In this document: positions 4,523 to 60,307 of the stretch, one piece after another
How the letters are laid out: each line of letters begins with the position of its first letter
Position numbering within the stretch: the stretch's first letter is position 1
Assembly (NCBI GenBank): GCA_014859095.1
Contig: JACUUV010000003.1
Span: 1 to 64,000 of the forward strand
Length of the DNA: 64,000 nucleotides
Direction: 5' to 3'
Origin: Clostridia bacterium
Lineage (GTDB): Bacteria; Bacillota; Clostridia; Peptostreptococcales; Acidaminobacteraceae
Made by a program: the position numbers and the translations under genes
Notes under the pieces: generated by a model
The model's input: the letters and a program-made list of their open reading frames with translations, nothing else
Told to the model about the DNA's origin: nothing
Databases searched by the model: none

Positions 4523-5635
4523 CTACCCATTGCCTTTGCCTTTGCCTTTGATAATAGTGCCCCCGCCGACAAGCCACTGATCTTTATAGAAAACCACTGC
4601 TTGACCTGGAGTGATGGCTCTTTGAGGTTCATCAAAGACAACTTTGACCTCATCCCCTTCAGGGTACAAGGTACACGGAGCCTCTTTGGCGCTGTATCTG
4701 ACTTTTGCCGTACATCTATATTCCTCTTCCAGACGATCGAATAAAATAAAATTGTTCTGGTCTGCAATGAGTTCTTTCTTGAACACATCGGAATTGTCAC
4801 CAAGTGTCACGACATTTTTGGTCGTATCGATGTCAATGACATACATGGGCTTTCCAAATGTCACTCCGAGCCCTTTCCTTTGACCGATGGTGTAATTCAC
4901 AATACCCTGGTGTTTGCCCAGCACTTCACCATCCGTGCCCACAAAAACACCTTCTTCGATTGCCATATCGCTGTTGCGTTTGAGGAAGCCCACATAATCC
5001 TGATCTGGAACAAAACAGATTTCTTGGCTGTCTGACTTTTGAGACATCTGCACATCAAATTGTGCCGCGACTTCTCTGACGTCGTCTTTGGATTCGAAAT
5101 CACCAAGTGGCATCAGAATATGTTTCAATTGATCTTGAGTCAGATTATATAGCGCATACGTCTGATCTTTTTCAACCGCATTGGATTTTTCAATGGTGTA
5201 TCGATCAAACCCATCATCGTATTTGATTTTGGCATAATGCCCTGTAGCCACATAATAAGCACCCAGTTGATGTGCCTTTTCCAAAAGGGCTTCAAATTTC
5301 ACGTATTTATTACAGGCGATGCATGGATTCGGAGTTTCCCCCTTCTGATAGGAGTCGATGAAATAATCGACAACAGTCGTTTTAAAGATTGCTTTGAAAT
5401 CCAGTGCATAAAAAGGAATCCCTATTTGTGCGCAAACTCTTCTCGCATCTTCAGCCGACGAAAGACTGCAGCAGCCTCCATCTTTTTCATAATGAGCTTC
5501 TTCAAGCGCATCATCCTGCCAAAGGCGCATGTTGACTCCAATGACGTCATAACCCATTTCTTTGAGTCTAAAGGCGGCGACAGTGCTGTCCACTCCGCCG
5601 CTCATGCCTACAACCACTCTATTGTTCTTAACCAT
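4523..5635 (-). CDS. mnmA: tRNA-specific 2-thiouridylase MnmA
   Basis: The 370-residue protein has the PP-loop SGGVDS at residues 12-17 and the two catalytic cysteines of the family: C105 in NPCIACN and C207 in SQEICFVPDQDYVG. MnmA adenylates and thiolates U34 of Lys, Glu and Gln tRNAs, taking sulfur from a persulfide donor. The cysteine desulfurase gene ends 3 bases upstream, so the two are co-transcribed, like the dedicated desulfurase-MnmA pair of Bacillus. The C-terminus (KGKGKGNG) is low-complexity and slightly longer than usual. Confidence 0.95.
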   Translation of the reverse strand: MVKNNRVVVGMSGGVDSTVAAFRLKEMGYDVIGVNMRLWQDDALEEAHYEKDGGCCSLSSAEDARRVCAQIGIPFYALDFKAIFKTTVVDYFIDSYQKGETPNPCIACNKYVKFEALLEKAHQLGAYYVATGHYAKIKYDDGFDRYTIEKSNAVEKDQTYALYNLTQDQLKHILMPLGDFESKDDVREVAAQFDVQMSQKSDSQEICFVPDQDYVGFLKRNSDMAIEEGVFVGTDGEVLGKHQGIVNYTIGQRKGLGVTFGKPMYVIDIDTTKNVVTLGDNSDVFKKELIADQNNFILFDRLEEEYRCTAKVRYSAKEAPCTLYPEGDEVKVVFDEPQRAITPGQAVVFYKDQWLVGGGTIIKGKGKGNG

Positions 5636-5638
5636 TGT

Positions 5639-6736
5639 TTATCCTTTCAAAATTCTTTCTGTTGTTTCGATCAGACGATCGATCTCATCATTTGTCGTTG
5701 GGAGTCCAAGTGAAAAACGCACACAGCGATTCGCTTGAATAGGATCCATACCAATCGCAAGAAGTACATGAGAAGCGGAGATCGCTCCGGAACTGCAAGC
5801 TGAGCCACTGGATACACAGAACCCTTCAAAATCATATTGAATGACCAGACCATCCCCATCCCTTGTGGGGAAATTAACACAGACTATTGCAGGATGGCTA
5901 TCGACCTGTTCACCTATGATTCTCAGACCGATGTCCAACTTCATCAAACCATCAATCAGTTTGAACTTAAGCGTTTCAAGGTGTTTGATATGATCTTTTA
6001 GTTTGATTTTTGAAATTTCAACTGCCTTTCCGAATCCTGCGATTGCAACTTCATCGACGTCACATAGACATGTTTTCAGTTCTTGTCTGAATTGGTTTGT
6101 ATACAGTGCGCCACATCCTTTTGGACCATAGATCTTATGAGCTGAAAAAGCCATCGTATCCGCTTTGATCCTTGAGACATCTATGACCGTTTTGCCAAGT
6201 GCCTGCACTGCGTCCACGTGAAATGCGATGTTCTTTTCATGCAAGAACTCACCAAGCTCTTCAACAGGCTGTCTCGTTCCGATTTCGTTGTTGAAAAACA
6301 TAACCGCCACCAATATCGTGTCAATCGTGACCATTGCTTTGGTGGCTTCGAGATCGATGACGCCCACTGGTGTCACAGGCAGTTTCACCACTTCAAAACC
6401 TTCAGATTCAAGTGCATTGAATACATTCAATACCGACGGGTGTTCAACAGCCGATACCAAAAGCCGTTTACCTCTGTGTTTTCCTCTGAAAGCGTGCCCA
6501 CGAATCGCCAAATTATTGGCTTCGGTCCCACTGGCGGTAAAGATAACATCCCCACTCTTTGCATTGATGGCATCCAGTAGTTTATATTTTGTTTTGTCCA
6601 TTTGATTTTCTATACATTTTTCATCATGCCAATCAAAAAATGCTTCAGAAGAATACTCCTTCAGCATGACATCCAGAACTTCATAGTCCATAGGAGTCGT
6701 TGCGGCATAATCCAAATAAATCTTATTTTTGATCAT
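5639..6736 (-). CDS. Cysteine desulfurase, class V aminotransferase fold, lacking a usual loop
   Basis: The 365-residue protein begins IYLDYAATTPMD. It has the PLP lysine in SAHKIYGPKG, the cofactor-ring region HVDAVQALGK and the catalytic loop SSGSACSSG. It lies directly upstream of mnmA and is its probable persulfide donor. Oddly, the glycine-rich GGGxERGxRSGT segment that normally follows GALY is absent. Here GALYTNQFRQELKTCLCDVDE runs directly into AIAGFGKAVEI, about 13 residues shorter, and in frame on both sides. That segment normally helps bind the PLP phosphate across the dimer. The start at 6736 follows GAGGAAACC; an upstream ATG at 6757 is less well placed. Confidence 0.85.
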   Translation of the reverse strand: MIKNKIYLDYAATTPMDYEVLDVMLKEYSSEAFFDWHDEKCIENQMDKTKYKLLDAINAKSGDVIFTASGTEANNLAIRGHAFRGKHRGKRLLVSAVEHPSVLNVFNALESEGFEVVKLPVTPVGVIDLEATKAMVTIDTILVAVMFFNNEIGTRQPVEELGEFLHEKNIAFHVDAVQALGKTVIDVSRIKADTMAFSAHKIYGPKGCGALYTNQFRQELKTCLCDVDEVAIAGFGKAVEISKIKLKDHIKHLETLKFKLIDGLMKLDIGLRIIGEQVDSHPAIVCVNFPTRDGDGLVIQYDFEGFCVSSGSACSSGAISASHVLLAIGMDPIQANRCVRFSLGLPTTNDEIDRLIETTERILKG

Positions 6737-6804
6737 GGTTTCCTCTTTATGATACAATTCTACCGGGTTACAATTCCTACTTCAACTGTAGGATATCAAA
6801 AAAT

Positions 6805-6833
6805 AGTATACCCTCTCGGGCCACTCCTGTCAA
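6805..6833 (-). promoter_or_regulatory. Promoter of the cysteine desulfurase-mnmA operon
   Basis: On the minus strand a perfect TTGACA (6828-6833) lies 17 bases from TATACT (6805-6810). The -10 box is about 70 bases before the desulfurase start at 6736. It is separate from, and downstream of, the small-RNA terminator at 6862-6900. Confidence 0.75.
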
Positions 6834-6861: not shown

Positions 6862-6900
6862 AAAAAAGAGAAAATGGATGCTGGCGATGCATCCATTTTC
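6862..6900 (-). terminator. Terminator of the intergenic small-RNA candidate
   Basis: A perfect 12-bp stem (GAAAATGGATGC with GCATCCATTTTC) has a 7-base loop and is followed on the minus strand by TCTTTTTTG. The plus-strand side lacks a T run, which fixes the orientation. No minus-strand protein gene lies upstream for it to end. Confidence 0.85.
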
Positions 6901-7010
6901 GTGAGGTATTCTAAATAAAGTTTACGTTTTGGGGGGTACCTATTCTTTATAAGTCAGCGGGGTGGCTAAGATATAAAGTGTTTTGCGAGTATAAGGAGTT
7001 TTGTTTCAAT

Positions 7011-7025
7011 TGATATTGATTATCA
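7011..7025. promoter_or_regulatory. Fur box
   Basis: TGATATTGATTATCA matches the 7-1-7 Fur consensus (TGATAAT-N-ATTATCA) at 13 of the 14 defined positions. It lies just downstream of the -10 box of the minus-strand small-RNA promoter and about 120 bases upstream of the plus-strand gene at 7145, so it could control either or both under iron sufficiency. Confidence 0.7.
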
Positions 7026-7037
7026 ATCTCTATATAT

Positions 7038-7066
7038 AATATAACACTTGTTTTTATTTTTGTAAA
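7038..7066 (-). promoter_or_regulatory. Promoter of the small-RNA candidate
   Basis: On the minus strand, TTTACA (7061-7066) and TATATT (7038-7043) are separated by 17 bases. The predicted transcription start, near 7031, falls next to the Fur box. Confidence 0.6.
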
Positions 7067-16808: not shown

Positions 16809-16910
16809 AAAAAACCGACACGCCCAGACATAGATATGCCCAGGCGGTCGGCTGTTGATCCTTCTCAATCCCTCGTGGTATCCCACTTATTCCGCCAGTT
16901 TTGAGAATTC
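16809..16910 (-). promoter_or_regulatory. ZTP (pfl motif) riboswitch with terminator upstream of pflB
   Basis: On the minus strand the leader contains GGCGGAATAAG, a GTGG...CCAC hairpin (GTGGGATACCAC), GAGGGA, and then the hallmark CCGACCGCCTGGGCA, all in the order of the ZTP riboswitch aptamer. The last conserved segment forms the 5' side of a long terminator (CCGAC...GTCGG, 16815-16851) followed by seven T. This is the usual expression platform, in which ligand binding prevents termination. It lies about 50 bases before pflB, the gene after which the motif was first named. Identification is by eye from known consensus features. Confidence 0.88.
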
Positions 16911-16921
16911 TTTTTATTGAT

Positions 16922-19028: not shown

Positions 19029-19250
19029 TCATGCCTGAAAATTAATGGTTTTCGATGGTATAATCGTTGAAATCGCATGCTTGTAAATCATTTGTTGCTT
19101 GCCTTCGCTGTCAAGCACAATCGTGTAACTGTCAAAACCCTTTACCAAACCTCTGATCTGGTATCCGCTGATCAAGAAAATTGTAATCGGTGTTTGGTCT
19201 TTCCTACATTGATTCAAAAATACATCTTGTAAATTGATTGTATTTTTCAT
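19029..19250 (-). CDS. hfq: RNA chaperone Hfq
   Basis: The 73-residue protein has the Sm1 region ([20 protein letters not shown]) and the Sm2 motif [12 protein letters not shown], with almost no C-terminal tail, as in other Gram-positive Hfq proteins. It forms a hexamer that binds small RNAs and mRNAs. It follows miaA by 18 bases, the classic miaA-hfq arrangement, and is followed by a strong terminator. It is a possible partner for the small RNA proposed at 6862-7031. Confidence 0.96.
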
Positions 19251-42563: not shown

Positions 42564-43379
42564 CTACTTTTTTAGGCTTTCAATGATTCCATCGTAAAGT
42601 TCAGTATATTCAGGTTCGCTTTTGTTGATGAACTCGCCCATTAAAAATTTGCCTTCCTTTTTATCGGCAGGTAATTTTTCAGCGACTTTATGGTCGACAA
42701 AACTGTCTTTTAGGAAAGTCATCATATCAACGACCGATCCTTTTTTGTTCTTTCTTCCGTAGTATGTCGGACAGATGGAAATCGCCTCAACGAGGGAAAA
42801 ACCTTTGTGTTTAATGGCCGCTTCAATGAATTTGTCCATCTGATTCACATGATACACAGTGGTTTTTGCCGCATATGTCGCTCCAGCTCCAATCGCAAGC
42901 TGTGTGATGTCAAACGGTTTATCGATGTTGCCATAAGGTGCTGTAGTGCCTTTTTCATGCGTCGGTGTGGTCGGAGAATATTGTCCACCGGTCATACCGT
43001 ATATATTGTTGTTGAAACAGATCGTAGTGAGTCCGATGTTTCTTCTGGCAGCGTGAATCAAATGATTGCCACCGATGGCGGAAAGATCTCCATCTCCTGA
43101 AATGACGATGACTTCGAGTTCAGGGTTGGCCAGTTTGACTCCTGTCGCAAAAGCCAGAGCTCTACCATGTGTCGTATGAAGTGTGTTGAAATCCATATAT
43201 CCTGGTGCTCTTGAAGAGCATCCGATACCCGAAACCACACAAACCTTGTCTTTATCGAGTCCAAGTTTCTCAATCGCTCTGGCGATGGATGCCATAATGA
43301 TTCCATGACCACAGCCTGGACACCATATATGTGGTAACTTGTCCATTCTAAAATAATTCTCAACCAATGGATGATTCAT
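42564..43379 (-). CDS. korB: 2-oxoacid:ferredoxin oxidoreductase, beta subunit (TPP-binding)
   Basis: The 271-residue subunit has iron-sulfur and TPP features: WCPGCGHGI, GIGCSSRAPGY and the TPP-binding ISGDGDLSAIGGNHLIHA with NNNIYGMTGGQ. It carries the catalytic thiamine cofactor. It starts immediately after the alpha gene ends (one base) and lies 10 bases before the gamma gene. Confidence 0.92.
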   Translation of the reverse strand: MNHPLVENYFRMDKLPHIWCPGCGHGIIMASIARAIEKLGLDKDKVCVVSGIGCSSRAPGYMDFNTLHTTHGRALAFATGVKLANPELEVIVISGDGDLSAIGGNHLIHAARRNIGLTTICFNNNIYGMTGGQYSPTTPTHEKGTTAPYGNIDKPFDITQLAIGAGATYAAKTTVYHVNQMDKFIEAAIKHKGFSLVEAISICPTYYGRKNKKGSVVDMMTFLKDSFVDHKVAEKLPADKKEGKFLMGEFINKSEPEYTELYDGIIESLKK

Positions 43380-59281: not shown

Positions 59282-59303
59282 ATTTTGTCACCCTTATATA
59301 ATG

Positions 59304-59855
59304 AAAAGAGGCAATCAATCGGATTAATTCTGCGGCTTAGGTCTAGTAGGATTTCCCATAGGCTTGCTATTCTGTCGCCAAAATAGCGGTTTCCCTTTAA
59401 AAACCTATTTGCAATGTTTCCATTTGCAAGACTAGACTACCACTTAGTCCACACTTCAATCCCCGATCGACCTTAATACAGTCTAGGAGCTTTCCTCAAC
59501 AGGCCTTCTAATTCCTAGCCTCTTTTGCAACAACGGTTTGGAGCGGCAATAATCCTTGTGAATTGGCCAATCCACTCAAATCTGAACCATCGTCTACCGC
59601 CACCACTCAAGGCAGGCTACTCTGCACTAAGCCTTTCGACCACATGCAGGTTTAATCTCGTCGAAACGAGTCTCCACAGGTTGAGGGTCAAGGTCCACAT
59701 GCCATTGTAGTTTGCCCCCATACCCTTACTCCCAGCTCCAACCCGAAACTGGGCGTCTCAAGCAAGAACCAGGAACTTCATCGATGTGCCCTCTAGCGAA
59801 TTTTTAGCCCCGCCTTCAGAATTAGAATTTCTGACTAGAATACTGCGCCTCTTTT
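59304..59855 (-). ncRNA. OLE RNA (ornate large extremophilic RNA)
   Basis: A 570-base stretch without any credible gene lies inside the isoprenoid/DNA-repair operon, between the divergent PAP2 gene and oapA. The minus-strand ends pair (AAAAGAGGC near 59855 with GCCTCTTTT near 59304), which closes a terminal stem around about 550 bases with many internal helices. Examples are CTCGTTTCGACGAG and GCAAATGGAAACATTTGC-like hairpins. Length, operon position and the following oapA gene all fit OLE RNA. Exact ends are estimated from the terminal stem. Confidence 0.9.
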
Positions 59856-59857
59856 TA

Positions 59858-60307
59858 TTATCTTACTATGATGTTGGCGATTAAAATTCCCAGCAGTGCG
59901 CCAACTGCCACTTCCGTAGGTTTGTGTCCCACAAGCTCCTTCAATTTTTCTTCTTCGAGATGCTTATGCTTGTAAAGGTCTTTTATGATGTCATTGAGTA
60001 GTTTCGCCTGTTTGCCCACCGATCTGCGTACACCGGATGCATCGTACATCACAATGAATGCCATGATCAGCGAAAGTGCATAAACCGATGATGACCATCC
60101 ATCCAAAATGCCGATTGCCGTGGATGCGGCAACTATTGTGGCTGTGTGTGAGCTCGGCATTCCACCCGAACCATGAAACCGCTCAAATTTAAATTCCTTA
60201 TTCACCAAAAGTGAAATCAACACTTTAAGTGATTGGGCAATAATCCATGAGACCATTGCAGCCATAAAAACTCTATTTGCAACAATCTCATCCATAAAAT
60301 CAGCCAT
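59858..60307 (-). CDS. Divergent PAP2 family protein (DUF212, YuiD-like)
   Basis: The 149-residue membrane protein has HGSGGMPSSHTATIVAASTA, which contains the PSSH motif, and MYDASGVRRSVGKQAKLLND, typical of DUF212. Its activity is not established, though acid-phosphatase-like motifs suggest a lipid phosphate substrate. It lies between polyprenyl synthase and OLE RNA, so a role on prenyl phosphates is plausible but inferred. Confidence 0.9.
   Translation of the reverse strand: MADFMDEIVANRVFMAAMVSWIIAQSLKVLISLLVNKEFKFERFHGSGGMPSSHTATIVAASTAIGILDGWSSSVYALSLIMAFIVMYDASGVRRSVGKQAKLLNDIIKDLYKHKHLEEEKLKELVGHKPTEVAVGALLGILIANIIVR

Follow-up and report, generated by a model that had tools for sequence, protein, structure and literature searches.

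The window analysed here, a stretch of 64,000 nucleotides of DNA, carries on its minus strand a conserved locus that probably specifies a trans-acting, Fur-repressed small RNA (sRNA) of about 170 nt, which would spare iron by occluding ribosome-binding sites. The sequence feature itself, described in an earlier note on this DNA, is real. The conserved sRNA is very probably controlled by Fur, and an iron-sparing role is the most likely reading of it. By its sequence the locus has its own promoter with a Fur operator and an intrinsic terminator, and is non-coding; we infer from this that it is transcribed and controlled by Fur, how it pairs, which mRNAs it targets and that Hfq may assist. In iron-replete cells Fe-Fur, sitting at about +7 to +21, would block transcription of the sRNA, and under iron starvation the sRNA would be made from its own promoter and would stop at its own terminator. 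Its anti-Shine-Dalgarno (anti-SD) arms would then pair with selected mRNAs at the ribosome-binding site and the first codons and block their translation, and scarce iron would thereby be spared. The candidate target mRNAs encode the iron-sulfur (Fe-S) proteins RnfC, KorD and KorB, together with the fur mRNA.

Features of the sRNA locus and related genes in the 64,000-nt window
Feature	Position	Strand	Basis or score
Extended -10 promoter TTTACA-17-TATATT, TG ahead of -10	7038..7066	minus	10/12 score
Fur box TGATAATCAATATCA	7011..7025	minus	1 mismatch of 14
Predicted sRNA transcript, ~170 nt	6862..7031	minus	start inferred from promoter
5' single-stranded arm ACTCCTTATACTCGC, anti-SD, containing invariant TCCTTATA	6985..6999	minus	alignment and predicted folds
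Central hairpin with CCACCCCGC loop, the loop limited to the window's genus	6945..6978	minus	predicted fold; other genera differ
Conserved core ACCCCCCAAAACGTAAACTTTATTTAGAATACCTCAC, largely single-stranded, complementary to SD-start codon regions	6901..6937	minus	alignment, folds, pairing
Intrinsic terminator, covarying stem, invariant TCGCC loop	6862..6900	minus	7/12 pairs with double changes, n=13
Promoter-like TTGACA-17-TATACT before cysteine desulfurase gene	6805..6833	minus	11/12 score
NifS/IscS-type cysteine desulfurase	5639..6736	minus	best ncbifam match NifS, below curated cut-off
MnmA, tRNA 2-thiouridine synthase	4523..5635	minus	ncbifam, over cut-off
Hfq domain, possible chaperone	19044..19232	minus	112 bits
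KorB-like 2-oxoacid:ferredoxin oxidoreductase subunit, candidate target	42564..43379	minus	named by N-terminal sequence

The minus-strand promoter TTTACA-17-TATATT that had been proposed is present at 7066-7038, with a TG before the -10 element in addition. The Fur box had been placed at the start of transcription; its 13/14 match stands, but the box sits slightly downstream of the predicted start and not on it, beginning 12 nt past the -10 element, which for a start at 7031 puts it at about +7 to +21. A scan of the whole window found no other Fur-box match with at most one mismatch in the 64 kb, and at up to two mismatches there were 2 matches against 0.74 expected. The 12-bp terminator with its T run was also recovered, as a hairpin of 12 pairs spanning 31 nt (6900-6870) and followed by a T-rich tail to about 6862. 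The predicted fold of 7031-6862 has an energy of -35.1 kcal/mol (z -5.7). Promoter-like matches are common in this DNA (47 found versus 33 expected in 14 kb), and this is what can be said for a chance coincidence of promoter, box and terminator that has no function. We consider such a coincidence extremely improbable, because it is already contradicted by the conservation, element by element, across 14 genomes of five genera and by a covarying terminator.

A covariance model placed the sRNA in 14 of the 41 genomes of the Fusibacter family, which represent 5 of 21 genera, as a single copy per genome. The model was built from 13 sequences, all among the 14 genomes matched, and therefore one genome, G023, is the only independent find. 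Ten of the genomes had been reached by BLAST and three more by a pattern search before G023 was added by the model. The BLAST search, with 261 bases, returned clear relatives in the window's genus and in neighbouring genera, and the pattern of the 3' core returned 11 records, including Fusibacter tunisiensis, F. bizertensis, F. ferrireducens and Fusibacter sp. 3D3. The window copy matched the model over 6862-6999 with 138 bits, its own sequence being part of the model. No plasmid similarity of the sRNA region was found.

All 14 genomes retain the TTTACA-17-TG-(-10) promoter, and in 13 of them the -10 element is followed by a Fur box that has no more than two mismatches (six perfect, six with one mismatch and one with two). 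The exception is G019, where by eye a longer palindrome occupies this position; strict matching there scores best on a second Fur-like site, located upstream. Such a second site, of the TGAGAATAATTTTCA type, lies upstream of the sRNA -35 element in the three loci of the F. ferrireducens group (L008, L010 and L029); in G019 it was measured, and in the remaining two loci it was recognized visually. Conservation was measured as the mean frequency of the most common base per 20 bases in 12 of the 14 genomes, with the near-duplicates G001 and G002 excluded. From promoter to terminator it ranged over 0.57-0.90; the stretches next to these had 0.68 and 0.56, and at the far ends of the flanks the values were 0.37-0.45. 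Poor conservation of the terminator and the C-rich motifs in relatives had been named in the earlier note as what would speak against an sRNA; what we found is that the terminator stem covaries, with double changes at 7 of its 12 pairs in 13 sequences, and that the element containing CTCCTT is present in 14 of 14 genomes. As a separate observation, the terminator loop TCGCC is identical in all 14 genomes despite the covarying stem, a constancy that an ordinary terminator would not need.

The conserved arms of the RNA are UCCUUAUA and a core ending in AAUACCUC, and both are complementary to ribosome-binding sites. From the sequence they appear to be the complement of a ribosome-binding site, a spacer and a start codon. 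The 5' arm contains TCCTTATA without variation in all 14 genomes, and the 3' core is closed by a further invariant anti-SD element, AATACCTC, which was absent from the motifs first listed. In the predicted folds of 10 sequences the 5' arm and the 3' core are mostly single-stranded. The C run is more variable: before AAAACGTAAAC, some genera have it in a shorter form or lack it; ahead of the AAACGTAAAC stretch it varies from CCCC to CCCCCC in most, and F. ferrireducens and genus g21 have lost it. CTCCTT, CCACCCC and CCCCCC, the three C-rich motifs proposed as anti-SD elements, all occur in the window transcript. CTCCTT lies within the invariant TCCTTATA, but CCACCCC, which is confined to the window's genus, and CCCCCC are not generally conserved. 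The proposal of a Fur-regulated iron-sparing sRNA is partly supported, through the stand-alone unit, the Fur box, the anti-SD arms, their conservation, the adjacent cysteine desulfurase-mnmA genes and the presence of Hfq and Fur-family genes; of the three C-rich motifs listed, only one is part of an invariant element.

It is very unlikely that the locus codes for a small protein. Short ORFs do occur in single genomes, the longest of them extending beyond the scanned sequence in G021 and G031, but among the 11 genomes scanned there was no ORF common to different genera, and this reading was rejected. Start codons differ between genomes, and the indels are not all in threes. About 110 nt separate the Fur box from the terminator without a start codon that has a good SD, which agrees with the earlier observation that the transcript has no start codon with a ribosome-binding site.

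The sRNA locus adjoins the cysteine desulfurase-mnmA genes, as the earlier note had stated; the lysozyme-like gene named there as the other neighbour has no ncbifam match, and it was matched upstream at only 6 of 13 loci, with too little upstream sequence to tell at L029. Downstream of the sRNA, and on its strand, 13 of the 14 genomes have a nifS-like gene (12 of the 13 loci searched, and the window); in the fourteenth, G034, the contig ends 226 bases after the sRNA match. At the 12 relatives the nifS-like match begins 91-188 nt after the AATACCTC element. This arrangement, and the invariant terminator loop, could suggest that the region instead belongs to the cysteine desulfurase mRNA as its 5' leader, acting as an iron-responsive attenuator or riboswitch, with the terminator controlling read-through into nifS-mnmA. 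We think that this is unlikely. In the window a separate promoter-like site with an 11/12 score stands between the terminator and the gene, about 30 nt beyond the terminator, and comparable -10 elements were seen by eye in several relatives. The terminator is the only consensus helix, and consequently no conserved alternative pairing is apparent; the 5' arms are mostly unstructured and anti-SD in character. An inverted repeat with the arms ATTCCTAC and GTAGGAT was also noticed at 6773-6794, in the 5' region of the cysteine desulfurase gene, and it may be an operator or leader element; resembling repeats were seen by eye in L006 and L045.

Returning to a trans-acting sRNA, all 14 genomes have an Hfq gene and between 2 and 4 Fur-family matches each. 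Pairing with candidate mRNAs was scored with a purpose-made local scorer; duplex scoring with unlimited loops was noisy. The background for the window's genome consisted of 279 start regions, covering about 11% of the genome and including the window, to which a Fer4 panel was added. The 28 Fer4 matches gave 24 distinct ORFs, of which 15 passed the SD and cysteine-motif filters, and one more from the background brought the panel to 16 genes, some with start positions that are probably misassigned. The own-genome backgrounds elsewhere were small, with 64 to 74 start regions each. Against 277 other genes the 16-gene Fe-S panel paired better with the 3' arm (p 0.003; 2 of 99 dinucleotide shuffles as good), and with the 5' arm the difference was not significant (p 0.09; 13 of 189 shuffles). 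The SDs of the panel are slightly stronger than those of other genes (p 0.09). A genome-wide pattern, a 10-mer complementary to the AAUACCUCAC arm with G-U allowed, together with a start codon, occurred at 56 places in the 14 genomes versus 23 for the reversed control, an excess that can be explained by SD-like sequence alone. No common Fe-S target was found among the 30 of these 56 places that were read; the loci, named by eye, are mixed and include cardiolipin-synthase-like, PurA-like and Rex-like genes.

In the window's genome rnfC came top for the 5' arm and korD for the 3'-most arm, each above all 279 sampled genes, and with longer arms and regions the two ranked 1 and 2 of 276. RnfC was identified over the ncbifam cut-off and KorD was named from matches below cut-offs. 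Because both genes were picked in the window's genome, their pairing in its own genus is not independent evidence. Orthologs of korD are present in 14 of 14 genomes. Against the window-genome background of 279, the rank of korD with the core was 0 in G034 and G023, 2 in G000-G002, 4 in G019, 13 in G031, 18 in G021, 20 in G062 and 27 in G064, and was poor in G003 (99) and in three of the four genomes of genus g9 (G029, 156; G011, 52; G063, 225). Against the own-genome samples korD ranked 0/74 in G023, beating all the genes sampled, 1/69 in G019, 3/64 in G031, 26/73 in G003 and 44/65 in G063; in the last of these it ranked 1/65 with the 5' arm. The site that is paired varies by genus, being the SD in g1 and the first codons in g17, g19 and g21. 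For rnfC and the 5' arm the ranks were 1/276 in G000, 1/65 in G063 and 6/73 in G003, weaker in g17 (6/64 in G031 and 31/69 in G019), and the pairing was absent in g21 (65/74 in G023). With 400 shuffles per genome, korD with the core gave p <=0.025 in 5 of 14 genomes, and rnfC with the 5' arm gave p <=0.05 in 6 of 13, the rnfC fragment of G021 (L138) having been left out of scoring. The KorB-like gene had entered the sample fortuitously; it came third among 276 in G000, among 69 in G019 and among 64 in G031, but stood at 57/74 in G023.

The start region of fur had been chosen as a decoy, and it paired with the sRNA about as well as the candidate targets. In G019 fur beat every sampled gene of its own genome (0/69), which counts in favour of the trans-acting sRNA. 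For the paralog used, the best match is an iron-type Fur model, at a score under the curated cut-off; scoring covered 12 of the 14 genomes (not G001 and G021). Since the decoy behaves like the candidates, the test cannot tell targets from ordinary ribosome-binding sites, and we have lowered the target claim: with regard to the expectation in the earlier note that target prediction would point to Fe-S mRNAs, the panel shows a weak enrichment, the conservation is partial and fur does about equally well.

The behaviour of fur may also be taken the other way, as a sign that the Fur-regulated sRNA serves mainly for feedback on fur or on the adjacent sulfur-transfer operon, or on both, rather than for general iron sparing. 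Of the 11 fur orthologs listed, 9 pair with the core at the SD in one and the same register, and the pairing there is weaker in G064. The shuffle p values were 0.002 in G003 and G019, 0.007 in G031, 0.025 in G062 and 0.04 in G063, that is, between 0.002 and 0.04 in 5 of 12 genomes, and about 0.1 in G000, G002, G034 and G023. However, they were 0.48-0.86 in G029, G011 and G064, the fur SD (GAGGUG) is of a common type, and the result is post hoc since fur was examined as a decoy. We regard feedback as the main role to be rather unlikely, and iron sparing remains our preferred reading. Taken together, rnfC, korD, korB and fur are suggestive candidate targets with partial, lineage-dependent complementarity. 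The pairing results would fit the occlusion of ribosome-binding sites with several targets, and generic SD complementarity could give part of them.

Perhaps, more speculatively, the locus represents a new clostridial RNA family that mimics the generic complement of SD, spacer and start codon, such that Fur represses the sRNA and the sRNA represses both fur and the low-potential ferredoxin enzymes (Rnf and the 2-oxoacid:ferredoxin oxidoreductases). This fuller scheme is possible but doubtful; if true, central anaerobic energy metabolism would be governed by a double-negative iron switch. The anaerobes that bear the sRNA do carry Rnf and 2-oxoacid:ferredoxin oxidoreductase genes, so an iron-rationing RNA in them would mean that such RNAs had arisen independently once more, here with a set of targets that can be tested.

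Outside the family, a covariance search of 297 genomes of the order (family included) gave weak matches in 8 genomes. Three of these, L046, L047 and L048, are in genus g55 of another family of the order and have a core similar to that of the sRNA. Their loci have a promoter, ATTCTCCGAAAACATAACCTTAGTTAATACCTAA and a terminator, and just past the -10 element, where the Fur box would be, stands a GTTAG-N6-CTAAC palindrome. The g55 unit may be a shortened relative of the sRNA under another repressor, or it may be a case of convergence. Of the other five weak outside matches, L049, L050 and L051 were read and look like chance. A model derived from g55 and applied to 11 genomes recovered its own three loci; the weak places L204, L205 and L208 that it gave also look like chance, and its remaining three matches are the opposite strand of places already listed.

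Searching Rfam 15 at the gathering threshold gave no family at the sRNA locus. The only families found in the window lie elsewhere, namely a full-length OLE RNA at 59292-59867 on the minus strand (484.9 bits, E 3.2e-139) and a ZTP riboswitch at 16831-16912, also on the minus strand (61.3 bits). With E values up to 10 the sRNA region gave two matches, both far below the gathering score and neither of them to RyhB or PrrF. Among the open-licence papers searched we found neither this RNA nor any other iron-sparing sRNA for Fusibacter or its relatives. An alignment and a covariance model now exist for this RNA family without an Rfam match.

FsrA is a Fur-controlled sRNA of a Firmicute. The FsrA model (RF02273) exceeded its cut-off in 0 of the 14 genomes, none of the weak matches listed falls at the sRNA locus, and Bacillus subtilis was found in the same test, and identity with FsrA was therefore rejected. 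The two RNAs nevertheless resemble each other in the Fur box at the locus and in the C-rich anti-SD pairing that we propose. FsrA of B. subtilis binds Shine-Dalgarno sequences through a C-rich motif and works with the chaperones FbpA/B/C (PMC9410917). The same paper describes IsrR of staphylococci as Fur-repressed and conserved in its lineage, with two Fur boxes, three stem-loops and three C-rich single-stranded regions, of which regions 1 and 3 are in loops, and with predicted Fe-S targets (PMC9410917). Compared with IsrR by this description only, our sRNA is similar in its Fur box, its conservation within a lineage and its SD-complementary single-stranded regions, and is set apart by the invariant arms UCCUUAUA and AAUACCUC and by having usually one Fur box. 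With RyhB and PrrF it would share, by analogy, an iron-sparing role, as well as Fur control and an Hfq gene in the genomes, although the sRNA region matches neither in Rfam at E up to 10. The RNA is new as a family, in the sense that it has no Rfam match, and its functional kind is already known. Iron-sparing sRNAs from several bacterial lineages have common targets without common sequence or synteny (PMC9410917).
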